This document shows positions 22,293-29,843 of a stretch of DNA of 30,797 nt, piece after piece; within the stretch, counting starts at the first letter, position 1; every line of letters begins with the position of its first letter. The notes below the pieces were generated by a model. The model was not told where the DNA came from. It searched no databases and saw nothing but the letters and a program-made list of their open reading frames with translations. The stretch lies in IMG/VR virus record IMGVR_UViG_3300044621_001249, positions 1 to 30,797 of that record, one strand, 5' to 3'. Both the position numbers and the translations under genes were made by a program. This stretch comes from a virus.

Positions 22293-25200
22293 ATGGCGAA
22301 TGAAGCCGCTGTAACGCAGACCATCAACATTGTCCCCGTCCAGGGGATTTTCCAGCCGGAGCCAACATTCGCCCTGGTGACCCTTATCGGGCCAGCTGGA
22401 ACGCCTTTCTACGCCAACATCAACCCCAATCAATCGGGGTTGCACATCACCAACAGCACGATTGACAGTTCGCCCATTGGGTCGATTACGCCGTCCACCG
22501 GCGTGTTCACCAATGTTGATTTGACCACCGGCACCATCACTTCGGTGCCCAGCGGGCCAACGTCGATTGTCAACCAGGCGTATGTTGATGCGGTGGCGCA
22601 GGGTTTGTCATTCAAACAGCCCGCCAATTACGTCACCATCGGCAACATTACCTTGTCCGGCCTGGCTGTCCAGGCTGGTGGTGATTGGGCCGCCACATTG
22701 ACCGCGGGTGACCGCATCCTGGTCAAAGACCAATCCACCGCCGCGAACAACGGCATTTATGTGGCCGCAGCTGGCGCCTGGTCGCGGGCAGCTGACGCCA
22801 ACACTTATGACGAATATTTGGGCGCGTATTTGTTCGTGCTGTCCGGTACGACTTACGGCGGTTCAGCCTGGGTTTGTACGAACCAGCCTGGCGGCACGTT
22901 GGGCGTCACAGCCATCACGTTCACGCAGTTTTCGAATAATGCGCTTTACACCGCGGGCACGGGCCTGACGCTGACGGGCTACCAGTTCAGCATCACCAAC
23001 GTGGGCACGGCTGGAACCTACGGTTCGGCGTCCCAGGTTCCGGTGTTTGTGACCAACGCCCAGGGCCAGGTCACCGGCGTGACCAACACCAGCATTTCGA
23101 TTGCTGGTTCGCAAATCACTTCGGGCACGATTGATTCGGGCCGTCTGTCGGGTTCATACACCGGCATCACCGGCGTGGGAACGCTGACCGCTGGCACATG
23201 GAACGCCAGCACCATCGGCGTGGCTTACGGTGGCACCGGCGTTGCTACGCTGACCGCGGGTTACGTCAAGGCCGACGGCACAAACCCGTTCAGCACCGTT
23301 GCGACCATCCCCAACACCGACATCACCGGCTTGGGCACGATGTCCACGCAGAACGCCAACAACGTGGCAATCACGGGCGGTTCGGTGGCCGTCGGGACGC
23401 TAAAAACACTGGGCCTGACCGGCTACTTGTACGGCAACGACACTGGCGCGGTCACCGCTTCCACCACGATTCCGAACACCGCGATTACGGGCCTGGGCAC
23501 CATGTCCACCCAAAACGCGAACGCGGTGGCGATTACTGGCGGCACGATCACCGGCCTGACCCAGCTGGGCGCCGACTATTTGCAGTTCAACACTGGCGCT
23601 ACCGTCACGCCCGCGGTGGGTAAGATTTGGTGGGGCGGCGGCACAAGCATGACTATCGGGATGACTACCAACGTCGTCCAAAAAGTCGGCGAAGACCAGT
23701 TTTATTACATCAAAGCGTCTGCGGCCATTACCAAAGGACAGGTGATTATGTTCACCGGTTCGGTTGGCTCATCAGGCGTCATTACCGGCGCCCCAGCCAC
23801 CGGCGTGACCGATGGCAGCTACATCATGGGCATTGCCGCCGAAGACATGGCAAACAATGCTTTTGGCCTGGTGCAATCCTTCGGCATTCTTCGCAACATC
23901 AACACCAGCACATACGTTGACGGCGACATTCTTTGGTACAACCCCGCAGTTACTGGCGGGCTGACCAAAACCAAACCTTCGGCGCCAAACATTAAAGTGC
24001 AAATGGCCGCGGTGGTCAACGGCGGTTCGGCTGGTGGCGGCGTCATCCAAGTTCGTGTGACTTCCGGTTCAACCCTGGGCGGCACTGACAGCAACGTTGA
24101 ATTTGGAACCCTTGCAAACGGCAACCTGATTCAATATAACGGCACGTATTGGACAAACGTTACCCCCGCATCCATTACGGGCGTCGGCACGGCGCTGAAC
24201 CTTGCTGGGGGCGGCGCGGGCCAGGTTCCGTATCAATCGGGCGCCAACACAACGGCATTCCTGGCCGCGGGCACATCGGGCCAAGTGCTGACTTCAAACG
24301 GCACCAGCGCCCCGACATGGACTACGCCGACGGCTTACGCCACGGTGACTGATGACACCACAACAAACGCCACGCGTTACCCGCTGTTTGCAAACCAAAC
24401 CGCTGGCAACCTTACGACCGAATTTGTCAGTTCGACCAGGCTGCAATTCAACCCGTTTACGGGTGAATTCACTTCCACTTCGTTCAGTGGGGCTGGCACC
24501 GGCCTGACCGGCACGGCTTCGGGCCTGTCGATTGGTGGAAACGCAGCAACCGCAACAAGTGCAACAAGTGCAACCACGGCCACCAACCTGGCTGGCGGCG
24601 CTAATGGGTCGTTGCCTTATCAGACCGGTTCGGGCGCCACGACTTTCCTTGCGGCCAGTACCAACGGGTACATCCTGACCCTGGCGGGCGGTGTGCCCAC
24701 CTGGGCGGCTGCTGCGCCGACCGGCGTCACGATTTCCGATGACACTACGACCAACGCCACGCGCTACCTGACGTTCACCAGCGCGACGACGGGCAACATC
24801 ACGACGGAGAATGTCAGTTCCACCAAACTGCAATTCAATCCGTCCACCGGCGCCCTGACCGCGACCAGCCTAACGCCCACGAACGCGGTTGGCATTGCTT
24901 ATGGCGGGACGGGACAAACAACGCAAACCGCGGCATTTGACGCGCTTGCGCCAACGACCACCAAGGGCGACCTGATTGTTGACGATGGCACAAACAACAT
25001 TCGCTTGCCTGTTGGAACAAATGGACAGGTGCTGACCGCTGATTCGACGCAAACGGCTGGTGTGAAGTGGGCCGCGGCAGCTGGTGGAATTACCTGGCAA
25101 GCGGCGCAAACGTCCAATTTCACGGCGGTTGCAGGAAATGGCTATCCGATCAACACCACTTCGGGCGTCATTTCCGTCACATTGCCAGCGTCCCCAAGTT

Positions 25201-26279
25201 TGGGCGACACAATTATTTTTGTTGATTACGCCGGGACATTTAATACAAATAAAGTCACGGTTCTAAACAACGGAAACAAAATTTTAGGTGCTGCCGCGCC
25301 GGTTCTTCTTGATGATTTAAGAGAAGGCATTTCTTTTGTTTATGTTGATTCCACGCAAGGCTGGTTGCCTTACGCGGCAATTAACACAGCTACCCCAAAA
25401 GGTAATTTTACTGCTGACTTTCTTGTTGTTGCTGGCGGTGGCGGCGGTGCGTTCCGGGGTGGACTTAGTTTTGGCGGTGGCGGCGGTGGCGCTGGTGGTT
25501 ATAGAACATCTGCCGGAACATCTGGCGGCGGCGCATCTGCCGAATCTGCTTTAACACTATCTGTTGGAACAAACTACACGGTAACTATTGGCGCTGGCGG
25601 CAATGCTGGCGTATCAGGAACAAACGCCACCAATGGTTCTGATTCTGTTTTTTCAACCATTACTTCTACCGGTGGCGGCAAAGGCCGATCTCAAAACGGA
25701 GAAACGGGGGGAACTGGCGGTTCAGGTGGCGGTGGAAACACAAACCAAGCAACAGGAGCCGCCGGAACGGCAAATCAAGGCTACAAAGGTGGTGATGTAG
25801 GAAGTGGAACCAGGGGTGCATCTGGAGGCGGTGGCGCTGGAGCAGCTGGAACAAATAAAGGTGCAGAAAGTGGATTTCCTGCAAACTCTGCCGGAACTTC
25901 TGGAGGTACTGGCGTTGCATCTTCCATTACTGGTTCATCAGTAACTAGGGCTGGTGGTGGTGGCGGCGGCGGTGCTGGTACGGGCGGCGGTGGTAGTGGC
26001 GGTACGGGCGGCGGTGGTGCTGGTGGTACGGGTACAGGAAATGGTTCTTCTGGAACCGTAAACACTGGTGGCGCCGGTGGTGGCTGTGGCGTTGATTCTT
26101 CTGGTAATACGGGAGGAACCACGGGCGGTGCCGGTGGTTCTGGAGTTGTGATTATTAAATACCCAGACACATACACAATCACAAATCCTGGCGGTGGATT
26201 AACTTCGTCCACTTCATCTTCCGGTGGATTCAAGGTGACAACCTTTACGGCTGGCACAGGAACCATTCAGTTTAGTTGA
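22293..26279 (+). CDS. Very large modular fibre with C-terminal glycine-rich adhesin domain
   Basis: 1328 residues. N-terminal 60 residues short beta segment; about 90-200 a module with LSFKQPANYV, GDRILVKDQSTAANNGIYVA and GAWSRAADANTYDEYLGAYL typical of phage fibres. A repeated shaft follows (two copies of GLGTMSTQNAN about 54 residues apart; two copies of DDTTTNATRY about 129 residues apart; GGTG turns). A middle module contains YYIKASAAITKGQVIMFTGS. From residue about 1046 to 1285 Gly is dominant in GGxGG runs, then a VVIIKYPDTYTI strand and ending GGFKVTTFTAGTGTIQFS. The last part resembles polyglycine-sandwich adhesins that bind host surface molecules. The gene lies between coat and neck genes, where P22 has none. 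The 3' part is AT-richer than the 5' part. Confidence 0.75.
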   Translation: MANEAAVTQTINIVPVQGIFQPEPTFALVTLIGPAGTPFYANINPNQSGLHITNSTIDSSPIGSITPSTGVFTNVDLTTGTITSVPSGPTSIVNQAYVDAVAQGLSFKQPANYVTIGNITLSGLAVQAGGDWAATLTAGDRILVKDQSTAANNGIYVAAAGAWSRAADANTYDEYLGAYLFVLSGTTYGGSAWVCTNQPGGTLGVTAITFTQFSNNALYTAGTGLTLTGYQFSITNVGTAGTYGSASQVPVFVTNAQGQVTGVTNTSISIAGSQITSGTIDSGRLSGSYTGITGVGTLTAGTWNASTIGVAYGGTGVATLTAGYVKADGTNPFSTVATIPNTDITGLGTMSTQNANNVAITGGSVAVGTLKTLGLTGYLYGNDTGAVTASTTIPNTAITGLGTMSTQNANAVAITGGTITGLTQLGADYLQFNTGATVTPAVGKIWWGGGTSMTIGMTTNVVQKVGEDQFYYIKASAAITKGQVIMFTGSVGSSGVITGAPATGVTDGSYIMGIAAEDMANNAFGLVQSFGILRNINTSTYVDGDILWYNPAVTGGLTKTKPSAPNIKVQMAAVVNGGSAGGGVIQVRVTSGSTLGGTDSNVEFGTLANGNLIQYNGTYWTNVTPASITGVGTALNLAGGGAGQVPYQSGANTTAFLAAGTSGQVLTSNGTSAPTWTTPTAYATVTDDTTTNATRYPLFANQTAGNLTTEFVSSTRLQFNPFTGEFTSTSFSGAGTGLTGTASGLSIGGNAATATSATSATTATNLAGGANGSLPYQTGSGATTFLAASTNGYILTLAGGVPTWAAAAPTGVTISDDTTTNATRYLTFTSATTGNITTENVSSTKLQFNPSTGALTATSLTPTNAVGIAYGGTGQTTQTAAFDALAPTTTKGDLIVDDGTNNIRLPVGTNGQVLTADSTQTAGVKWAAAAGGITWQAAQTSNFTAVAGNGYPINTTSGVISVTLPASPSLGDTIIFVDYAGTFNTNKVTVLNNGNKILGAAAPVLLDDLREGISFVYVDSTQGWLPYAAINTATPKGNFTADFLVVAGGGGGAFRGGLSFGGGGGGAGGYRTSAGTSGGGASAESALTLSVGTNYTVTIGAGGNAGVSGTNATNGSDSVFSTITSTGGGKGRSQNGETGGTGGSGGGGNTNQATGAAGTANQGYKGGDVGSGTRGASGGGGAGAAGTNKGAESGFPANSAGTSGGTGVASSITGSSVTRAGGGGGGGAGTGGGGSGGTGGGGAGGTGTGNGSSGTVNTGGAGGGCGVDSSGNTGGTTGGAGGSGVVIIKYPDTYTITNPGGGLTSSTSSSGGFKVTTFTAGTGTIQFS
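23307..23381 (+). repeat. Fibre shaft repeat, copy 1
   Basis: 75 bases encoding a segment from IPNTDITGL to NNVAITGG. It recurs 162 bases downstream (23469-23543) with many silent changes but similar protein, as expected from selection on a trimeric shaft instead of recent duplication. Confidence 0.7.
23469..23543 (+). repeat. Fibre shaft repeat, copy 2
   Basis: Second copy of the repeat at 23307-23381, encoding IPNTAITGL to NAVAITGG. Coding repeats within the fibre gene; not CRISPR or a mobile element. Confidence 0.7.
25431..26145 (+). repeat. Glycine-rich coding segment of the fibre
   Basis: Runs of GGN codons (Gly) in patterns such as GGGGGAFRGG, GGGGGAGGY and GTGGGGSGGTGGGG fill about 240 residues. 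On the opposite strand they make a long proline-rich open frame, which is a shadow. The segment is likely folded as packed polyglycine helices. The DNA is prone to repeat recombination, giving rapid tip change. Confidence 0.75.
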
Positions 26280-27006: not shown

Positions 27007-27981
27007 ATGACTACGCCATTTGACATTATTAGCCGCGCATTGAAGGACATCGGTGCGCTTGAAGCGGGTGAAGTGCCTAGTTCTGATGCGGCGCAAGATG
27101 CGTTCGACATGCTGAACGACATGTGCGCCCAGTGGTCAAACGAAAACATGATGGTCTTTTACAAGACCGAAATCATTTTCCCGTGCGTCCAAAATCAAAT
27201 CCAGTACACCATCGGCCCTGGGGGCCAGGTTGGTTCAACATTTACTGGTTCCATTTCCGGCACGACCCTGACCGTTCCAGCCAACGGCGTGACCCAGGGC
27301 GCCATCACGATTGGGCAAACCATCAGCGGTTCCGGCATCACGGCTGGAACCACGATTGTGGGGTTCCTAACGGGCGCTGGCGGCAACGTCAACGAGGGCG
27401 GCACCTACACGGTCAGCAAGTCACAAACGGTTGCCAGCACCACCATCACGGGCTACTACGAACGCCCGCTGACCATTGAATCGGCGTTTGTTCGTGTGAC
27501 CACCACCAGCAACGGTGTGCCAATTTATGGCGGTGGCCTGGACTATCCGGTGTCGGTGTTCAGCCTGGAAGAATACGAATCCATCGGCCTGAAATCGCTA
27601 AACGGCCCGTGGCCTAAGGGTATTTACTACCAGCCAAGCGAACTGCTGGGCACGATTTACGTGTGGCCCAACCCGGCCCAGGGCGAAATGCACTTGTTTG
27701 CATCGACCATTTTCCGGCAGTTTTCCACGCTGACGGACACCATCCAGTTGCCGCCTGGTTACAACAACGCGCTGCGCTGGTGCTTGGCCGAACGCCTGAT
27801 GCCCATGTATGGCAAAGCCAGCACCACGCAAATCAGCATGATTAACGCGTTCGCGGCCCAGGCCAAGGCCACCGTCAAGCGCACGAACATGAAGCCGCCG
27901 CAAGTTGCGCGTTACCCTGATTCGCTGATGATTGGTAAGGCCAAGGACGCTGGCTGGATTATGGATGGGGGATTCCGATAA
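27007..27981 (+). CDS. P22 gp4-like neck protein with inserted repeat domain
   Basis: 324 residues against 166 in P22 gp4. N-terminal [35 protein letters not shown] and later [20 protein letters not shown] followed by KRTNMKPPQ are family features. Residues about 76-150 are a beta-rich insert ([10 protein letters not shown] ... [14 protein letters not shown]) placed between two strands of the gp4 core, which extends to about 325. The protein seals the portal after packaging and forms the base of the short tail. The insert probably projects outward. Confidence 0.82.
27232..27456 (+). repeat. [10 protein letters not shown] repeat domain, copy in gp4-like gene
   Basis: Encodes about 75 residues from [15 protein letters not shown] to VASTTITGY. 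Similar segments occur twice in the next gene (28377-28568 and 28590-28778). Protein pattern: [16 protein letters not shown] or similar, GTYTV, then SQTV. Probably a small beta domain used for decoration or sugar binding; function not known. Confidence 0.75.
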
Positions 27982-29843
27982 TGGCTGATTTTGGTTTTGT
28001 CGGGCCTTCGTATGAGGCGCCCAGCATTTACCAGGATGCCCAGGAGTGCATCAATTTCTATCCTGAACTTGACCCCCTGAAGCAGCCTGGCGAACGCGGC
28101 GTGGCCGCGCTGTATCCAACGCCTGGGCTGACTGCGCTTTTGCTGTTCCAGAATCAGCAAGAAATCCGCGGCATGGTCACCCTGTCCGGCGGTGACATCA
28201 TGGTGGTGGTTTGCGGCCCTTACGTTTACGCTATCACTTCCAGCTACACCACCACGATGGTGGGCCAGCTGAACACCAACACCGGGCGCGTGGGCATCAC
28301 CGACAACGGCATCAACGTCTACATTGTGGACGGTGTTAATCGCTACACCTGGCGCATTTCTTCGCCATCGTCGGCGGTGTTTACCGGTTCCATCAGCGGC
28401 ACCACGCTGACCGTTACCGCCATCACCAACGGCACCATTGGCATCAATCAGGGCTTGTTTGGCGTTGGAGTAAGCCAAGCCACAGTCATCACCGCGCTGG
28501 GCACTGGAACCGGCGGTGTGGGCACATATACCGTCAACCTTTCGCAAACCGTCGCCAGCGAACAAATGAACAGCGCCACTGTTGGCGCGGTGGTTACGGG
28601 GTCAATTTCCGGCACAACGCTGACCGTCAGCGCGGTGACCAGCGGAACGCTGTATATCGGTCAAACCATCCAAGGTTCCACTGTCACAACGCAAACCATC
28701 ATCACGGCGCTGGGAACCGGAACCGGCGGCGCCGGAACATACACGGTCAACAATTCGCAAACCGTCACTTCGCGCACCCTTTATGGCCTGAACTGGTCGG
28801 TGTTGCCGTCCACTGATGGCGCATTCCAGGGCGGCACAAACGTTGACATTGTGGACAATTATTTTGTCTACAACCGGCCCGACACGCAGCAATTTGGCGC
28901 ATCGTCTGTTTTGTCGCCCATTTCGCCCGCGTTAAGTTTTTCCAGCAAAGACGGCGCCCCTGATGACCTGGTGACGTTGATTGTTGACCACCGCGAAATC
29001 TATTTGCTGGGGGAAGCATCCAGCGAAGTTTGGGTTGACCAGGGCACCATCCCGTTTCCGTTTACCCGCATTCCTGGCACATCAACCCAACACGGCATCG
29101 TTGCGGCATTCAGTGTGTCCCGGCTGGGCAATTCATTTGCTTACCTGTCGCGCAACAATCGCGGCCAGGCGCAAGTGGTGCAAATGAATGGTTACGTGCC
29201 GCAGCGCATTTCGACCCACGCGGTTGAAGCCACCCTGGCAAATCAAGATGTCAGCGACGCAATTGCCTGGACATACCAGCTGGAAGGACACGAAGTCTAT
29301 GTGATTTCGTTCCCGACCCTGAATTTGACCTGGTGCTATGACATTGCTAGCGGCATGTGGCACAAATGGCTGTACACCAACAATTTGGGCCAGTATGAAC
29401 GCGCCCGCGGCAATTGCTGCGCCGTGTTCCAAGGCCAGGTTTTGGTGGGCGATTACGCAAATGGCAAGGTCTACAAACTGGACAAAACCAACTACACAGA
29501 CGACGGCCAGCATGTACGCCGCTTGCGCCGCGCCCCGCACCTGGTTACTGATTTTCAGCGTCAATACTTTGACGAGTTGCAAATTCAATTTCAGCCTGGT
29601 GTGGGCACTGTAAACGGCAGCGGAGAAAACCCTCAGGCCATGTTGCGCTGGTCAAATGATGGTGGTTCTACCTGGTCAAATGAACACTGGACATCAATTG
29701 GCCGTATGGGAAAATATGCAAATCGTGCAATTTGGCGGCGCCTTGGAACGGCGCGTGACAGGGTTTTTGAGGTATCTATTTCTGACCCTGTGAAAGCCGT
29801 GATTGTGTCGGCCAATTTGAAAGCAACCGCGGGGGAAAATTGA
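27981..29843 (+). CDS. P22 gp10-like neck protein with two inserted repeat domains
   Basis: 620 residues against 472 in P22 gp10. N-terminal [29 protein letters not shown] and later [35 protein letters not shown] and [13 protein letters not shown] match the packaged-DNA stabilisation family, a beta-propeller-like ring between gp4 and the tail needle. Residues about 133-196 and 204-266 are two copies of the domain found inside the gp4-like protein, and account for most of the additional length. The gene starts at the last base of the gp4-like gene. Confidence 0.85.
28377..28568 (+). repeat. [10 protein letters not shown] repeat domain, first copy in gp10-like gene
   Basis: Encodes [14 protein letters not shown] to LSQTVASEQ. 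Related to 27232-27456 and 28590-28778. The lower identity at third codon positions suggests divergence after duplication or separate acquisition. Confidence 0.75.
28590..28778 (+). repeat. [10 protein letters not shown] repeat domain, second copy in gp10-like gene
   Basis: Encodes [14 protein letters not shown] to NNSQTVTSR. It follows the first copy after a linker of about seven residues. GTGTGG is shared with the first copy. Confidence 0.75.

Follow-up and report, generated by a model that had tools for sequence, protein, structure and literature searches.

Phage structural proteins are already known to have Ig-like and carbohydrate-binding domains in common. Promiscuous Ig-like domains were reportedly described in the structural proteins of tailed phages by Fraser, Yu, Maxwell and Davidson in 2006. 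They are small β-domains inserted in or appended to unrelated virion proteins (heads, tails, and fibres), with a patchy distribution among close relatives. In lactococcal 936 phages, CBMs occur in the neck, the major tail protein and Dit, and host binding was shown for two of them (PMC6669499). The Ig domains of Hoc attach to bacteria (PMC10385173), and phage proteins with structural or receptor-binding roles are known to be mosaic in their domains (PMC10684548).

The window analysed here, which is the whole 30,797 bases of an IMG/VR virus record, encodes a module that, by analogy and from its predicted structure, behaves like these promiscuous Ig-like and carbohydrate-binding domains, apparently with another fold. 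It is likewise a small, predicted β-domain inserted in unrelated virion proteins and patchily present among close relatives and, as in the 936 phages, one particle would bear accessory domains in several structural proteins, including the neck. The 936-phage CBMs, however, have different folds and two of them were shown to bind the host, whereas the window virus has a single domain family, known here from its sequence and a model. What is new is a second such domain, very widespread and apparently of a different fold, for which Pfam and NCBIfam have no model.

A P22-Type Neck with Enlarged gp4- and gp10-like Proteins

The head and neck genes of the record, which comes from a freshwater P22-like virus, follow the P22-type order, running from the large terminase through a P22-type portal, scaffold, coat, and long glycine-rich fibre-like protein to a gp4-like and then a gp10-like protein. 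The 324-aa protein matched phrog_637 (E 3.8e-6, residues 1-52), phrog_12985 (E 9.2e-43), and Pfam SU10_adaptor (E 1.1e-6), and its ORF adjoins that of the gp10-like protein on the upstream side. Judged by family match and position, the two features by which P22 gp4 (the Ad3 adaptor) is recognized, it is a P22 gp4-like Ad3 adaptor. The 620-aa protein matched the head closure Hc3 family phrog_578 (E 9e-104), and its AlphaFold model aligned with P22 gp10 (8EAP) over 442 residues (Z 38.8, rmsd 2.4); on sequence and predicted structure, it belongs to the P22 gp10 (Hc3) fold and sequence family. The features of this region are as follows:

27007..27981, + strand: gp4-like head-tail adaptor (Ad3 type), 324 aa, carrying module A (phrog_637, phrog_12985, SU10_adaptor)
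27241..27450, + strand: module A, 70 residues including a gp4-specific NVNE-type insertion (HMM domain; empty site in the gp4 of P26218 and MW202655)
27981..29843, + strand: gp10-like nozzle/head-closure protein (Hc3), 620 aa, carrying modules B1 and B2 (phrog_578; AlphaFold model)
28380..28571, + strand: module B1, 64 residues (HMM domain; absent in the 62%-identical gp10 of MW202674)
28572..28592, + strand: 7-residue linker between B1 and B2 (same length in 105/107 two-module relatives)
28593..28784, + strand: module B2, 64 residues (HMM domain; absent in the 62%-identical gp10 of MW202674)

Scaffold, gene order, and gp10 fold are shared with P22 gp4/gp10 and their relatives, but P22 itself, unlike the window virus, has the module in neither protein. 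The initial annotation held that the inserts account for much of the size increase over the P22 proteins. This is correct for gp10 (620 aa versus 472 aa in P22), where the modules and linkers make up about 135 residues of an excess of 148, but only half correct for gp4 (324 aa versus 166 aa), where the module supplies about 70 of 158 residues and the remaining excess is a β region without a P22 gp4 counterpart.

Three Copies of One Domain Family

Three motifs, the last of which is SQTV, mark each copy. They start at 27247, 27400, and 27421 in the 324-aa ORF, and at 28386, 28521, and 28542 and again at 28599, 28734, and 28755 in the 620-aa ORF, and a six-frame scan of the window found the GTYTV motif and its companion 10-letter-type motif nowhere outside these three copies. 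The tandem gp10 segment matched the gp4 copy with an E-value of 3.2e-11 and 61% identity, and no fourth copy was found when it was used as a query against the 30,797-base record. A module HMM also found exactly three domains in the window. Including these, 570 real domains scored above 55 bits, while the best decoy reached 9.4 bits and none of the 38,418 decoys (19,209 reversed and 19,209 block-shuffled ORFs) matched below E 1e-3. The three copies and the carriers found elsewhere are one domain family, and the motif positions, the HMM, and the decoy control confirm that, as first noted, the module occurs once in the gp4-like and twice in the gp10-like protein.

The composition of the modules (2.4% charged residues, 51% T/S/G) differs from that of the gp10 scaffold (16% and 24%, respectively). 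A low-complexity artefact was ruled out by the decoys, by a structural model with a pLDDT of 98, and by the empty sites described below.

Module-free gp10 proteins that are collinear through the insertion site were found in MW202674 (489 aa, 62% identical), MW202520 (528 aa), Rhodoferax phage P26218 (475 aa), and others, and this site maps to about residues 123/124 of P22 gp10. For gp4, a clean empty site was observed in P26218 and in MW202655 (234 aa). MW202674 and MW202520 have a gp4 module at the same place as the window together with a module-free gp10. As judged from these alignments, the modules are insertions in the gp4 and gp10 scaffolds. The clean empty sites in both genes, and dozens of unrelated carriers, uphold the proposal that the same module occupies two unrelated scaffolds.

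Predicted Fold of the Module

An AlphaFold model of a single module, obtained from a 60-row alignment composed of IMG/VR loci only, had a pLDDT of 98.1 and a pTM of 0.85, with strands at residues 2-19, 27-29, 38-41, and 50-68. The module is thus confidently predicted to be a compact β-domain, and it presumably folds autonomously. In the predicted model, the long first and last strands reach the two termini. This strand pattern suggests that they lie side by side, so that the chain would enter and leave at nearly the same point and insertion into a loop would leave the host fold intact. Conserved positions are glycines, threonines, and hydrophobic residues, with G50 and Y52 invariant; from the alignment, they look structural, with no visible binding site among them.

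The best Foldseek match in the PDB was 8ECI chain 1 from Arthrobacter phage Bridgette (probability 1.00, E 0.018, TMq 0.71, Z 7.2), followed by β-barrels of translation factors and F1-ATPase (Z 5-6.4), and Z-scores below 8 can mean a common arrangement. The Bridgette chain and the Arthrobacter phage Judy protein A0A3G2KGJ4 have a similar fold over 62-67 residues at 24-25% identity, with a weak E-value; these proteins differ from the module in being free-standing, with 124-126 residues and no insertion. When the module profile was searched against PDB sequences, nothing matched at E 10. Ig chains were among the fold matches with a TMq of only 0.20-0.27, below the other β-barrels and all with Z below 8, and no Ig-like or Big family of Pfam or NCBIfam matched gp4, gp10, or ten other carriers. 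Unlike the phage Ig-like domains, the module has no Pfam Ig-like match, and its better fold matches are not Ig chains, but the Z-scores are middling and its fold may yet be of the Ig type.

Distribution among Other Virion Proteins

Two degenerate-DNA motif scans located at least 119 stretches in viral contigs and 32 stretches in bacterial genomes, a sample that is motif-drawn and not a census. Among the matches listed, 366 ORFs contained 514 HMM-detected modules. With the module masked, the carriers listed formed 64 groups, a number inflated by incomplete ORFs, and in 52 of them the module was flanked on each side by 40 or more residues. Among these matches, the module thus lies in loops with both flanks present in 52/64 groups, whereas phage Ig-like domains are mainly C-terminal. 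These carrier groups, and close relatives that lack the module and are otherwise collinear, bear out the suggestion that the domain is mobile, and its mobility on an evolutionary scale is well supported.

Nearly all of the carriers with a recognizable function, among the matches listed, were virion parts. In a PHROG/Pfam scan of 40 carriers, in which function was read from a second match besides the module, we found a tail sheath (phrog_205/DUF3383), a major tail protein (phrog_807), a neck terminator (PF23961), minor head (phrog_2122 and phrog_3645) and head structural proteins (phrog_587 and phrog_687), a baseplate wedge (phrog_6), a capsid/maturation-protease fusion (phrog_133/phrog_4523), a tail tubular protein (phrog_394), many fibres and spikes, and also collar and virion structural proteins. 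Two carriers matched a lysophospholipase L1-like esterase, one was a bacterial DUF6701 protein, and the remaining carriers were matched through the module alone. Fold matches in BFVD added an HK97 major capsid protein and a tip attachment protein J. The initial annotation had proposed looking for the module in other phage proteins, and it was indeed found in sheath, capsid, baseplate, tail tube, adaptor, and fibre carriers.

Several individual carriers may be mentioned. L226:5025-7953, L179, and L231, which are prophage-like regions of Rhizobium plus one viral contig, have modules in the tail sheath (DUF3383) as well as in the neck-terminator-like protein next to it; this is a second instance of adjoining tail genes that both carry the domain. 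One related group of viral contigs (L132, L153, L186, and L203) has the module in three different proteins, of 290, 422, and 667 aa, that match no other family. A bacterial DUF6701 protein from a Rhodocyclaceae genome bin (L230:6556-7998) contains two modules, and the giant virus Indivirus ILV1 has two collagen-like proteins (A0A1V0SCQ2 and A0A1V0SDM6 in BFVD) that share the fold at 36-45% identity.

In the gp10 of L044:5602-7740 (also L062, L068, L091, L138, and L172), a β-type segment (TAGTGYSVNDVVTVVGGV...) is nested in B2 between VITALG and GTGSGG, and in L044 this segment matched the head decoration family phrog_9703 (E 9.4e-6), a domain within a domain. In L134:8883-11111 and L193:8044-10311, B1 and B2 are separated by a domain of a third type (...TYYIIATNGTTTFTLS...), with a length of about 88 residues. 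The gp10 loop therefore collects different domains.

Neither Pfam nor NCBIfam contains a model matching the module. It is contained in phrog_21413 and phrog_38233 (tail fiber protein), as columns 397-466 of 595 and 552-626 of 896, respectively, and every module carrier matches at those columns; both are whole-protein clusters of other proteins, in which the module is not set out as a domain of its own. By itself, the module hence makes unrelated proteins resemble a 'tail fiber protein' in profile searches, which calls for caution in annotation. A tblastn search of 50,697 phage records with the tandem segment returned nothing at 1e-3, probably because of low-complexity filtering of a T/G/S-rich sequence, as other module queries succeeded: with E-values up to 10, the gp4 copy found MW202520 and MW202674, and another module found Sinorhizobium phages. 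A text search of 5.39 million papers for the module motif found no mention, from which unpublished status does not follow.

Probable Order of Acquisition in gp4 and gp10

To gather relatives, viral contigs were scanned twice more with gp10 queries lacking the module. No module was present in either gene at 88 loci, while 70 had one in gp4 only, nine had two in gp4 only, 111 had one in gp4 and two in gp10, and five had one in gp4 and three or four in gp10. At the few loci with two gp10 modules and none in gp4, gp4 was present as incomplete fragments only. In a tree of 229 gp10 sequences from which the modules had been cut out beforehand, the loci with a gp4 module were monophyletic (n = 157, support 1.0). 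Within this group, the loci with one gp4 and two gp10 modules formed a clade (n = 85, support 0.958) whose sister consisted of loci with a module-free gp10 (n = 72, support 0.991). The simplest reading of this tree is one gain in gp4, followed by one gain of the pair in gp10; a gain in gp10 before the split, with loss in the sister group, would take one step more. Close relatives thus provide a natural series, from no module through gp4 only to gp4 plus a tandem in gp10, and this is the most useful feature of the system, making the role of promiscuous virion domains testable in one scaffold with empty-site controls.

Tandem gp4 modules with a module-free gp10 (L284:1537-2736, L252, L253, L247, L289, L310, L317, L283, and L285) were scattered at several separate places on the tree. 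In the gp4 of Xanthomonas phage PBR31 (L086:3045-3995), a different insert (LGGDISGAGIPAGATVTAIGANTVTMS) occupies the same loop and may be a far variant of the module; as a module at the same site, this insert (GAGIPAGATVTAIG) is suggestive and below significance, so that the gain could predate the 157-taxon clade.

The linker between B1 and B2 was 7 residues long in 105 of the 107 two-module cases. Within the clade carrying one gp4 and two gp10 modules, pN/pS was 0.130 for B1, 0.101 for B2, and 0.081 for the scaffold, from 328 unsaturated pairs in 86 genomes that are non-independent through shared history. The modules are old in this lineage, and by these measures they are kept under purifying selection rather than decaying and are not hypervariable, in contrast with many receptor-binding tips.

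Possible Role of the Modules

In P22, 12 copies of gp4 and six of gp10 are present per virion. We consider it rather probable that the modules are surface-displayed accessory β-domains that circulate among virion proteins, entered gp4 first and gp10 later as a pair, and make weak multivalent contacts. In such a course of events, an autonomously folding β-domain circulating among tailed-phage virion proteins would first have entered a loop of the gp4 adaptor, and two modules in tandem, joined by a 7-residue linker of fixed length, would later have entered the gp10 nozzle loop at about residues 123/124 of P22 gp10. Both insertions would be old, and the copies would since have been maintained by purifying selection. 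With the P22 stoichiometry, about 24 modules per virion would surround the neck and nozzle, displayed outward from two sites that are presumably solvent-exposed, and they may bind polymers on the cell surface or in the environment through weak multivalent contacts, or make such contacts between neighbouring subunits.

An adhesive or cementing surface accessory domain is the most likely function, as far as analogy can indicate. Adhesion is proposed because of the analogy with the 936-phage CBMs and the Hoc Ig domains; against it, the closest solved fold comes from a capsid structure, which would favour cementing. The modules could then help the neck and nozzle to withstand genome pressure by contacting neighbouring subunits and not the outside world, an explanation that we regard as somewhat unlikely. 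Dimeric capsid cementing proteins were reported in Arthrobacter phage Bridgette (PMC13033339), the source of the best PDB fold match, 8ECI chain 1, which was compared by fold alone, and its Z-score below 8 can reflect a common arrangement. Capsid, sheath, and tail-tube proteins among the carriers and the fixed linker length are consistent with bracing, but sister phages manage without the gp10 pair and the modules are near-neutral in charge.

We find it quite improbable that the modules are nearly neutral passengers, harmless foldable domains inserted by illegitimate recombination and kept as removal is rare and misfolding costly. The very wide range of carriers, the nested and alternative β-domains that pile up in the same gp10 loop, and the gp4 copy number, which drifted several times independently, would all be expected of passengers. 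However, purifying selection on the modules is almost as strong as on the scaffold, although folding alone could account for part of it, the 7-residue linker is constant, and B1 and B2 were retained throughout the 85-taxon clade.

Returning to circulating accessory domains with weak multivalent contacts, a broader version, which we put forward only tentatively, would make this unnamed β-domain family a general plug-in of tailed-phage particles, in head, neck, tail tube, sheath, baseplate, and fibre proteins, that also occurs in bacterial proteins and a giant-virus collagen-like protein, with stepwise accretion at the neck leading to an adhesion collar of about 24 domains.

Source of the gp10 Copies

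The initial annotation inferred that the module had spread within the tail; taken as copying from gene to gene, this part of it is probably wrong. The DNA identity between gp4 and gp10 copies was no higher within the same genome than between different genomes (0.550 versus 0.544, and 0.564 versus 0.557 in a second comparison), whereas each module position compared across genomes gave 0.67-0.69. Recent gene conversion between the gp4 and gp10 copies was ruled out, as there was no within-genome excess of identity. A four-residue insertion before GTY was present in 120 of the 132 gp4 copies and in none of the 280 gp10 and other copies. The gp10 copies were also nearer to modules of unrelated proteins (0.56-0.60) than to gp4 copies (0.50-0.54), a slight difference in a comparison in which trees of 64 residues are weak. 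Because of the missing same-genome excess, the insertion private to gp4, and the proximity of the gp10 copies to modules of unrelated proteins, separate acquisitions from a wider pool appear likelier than spread within the tail. That the gp10 modules are duplicates of gp4's own module would fit the greater age of the gp4 copy on the gp10 tree and its presence in all loci with a complete gp10 pair and a complete gp4, but the same three observations make such an origin doubtful.

It is scarcely credible that the modules belong to the core fold of both the gp4 and the gp10 family and were lost by some members, and for the gp10 modules the empty sites refute this reading: the module is far from present in all family members, as 88 loci have none and 70 have it in gp4 only, P22 gp10 lacks it, the scaffold aligns across the empty site, and nothing in favour of this reading was found among the gp4/gp10 loci compared.

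The 1328-aa glycine-rich fibre-like protein encoded at 22293-26279 of the window contains no module and has phrog_2295 in common with module-bearing proteins of L177 and L097.
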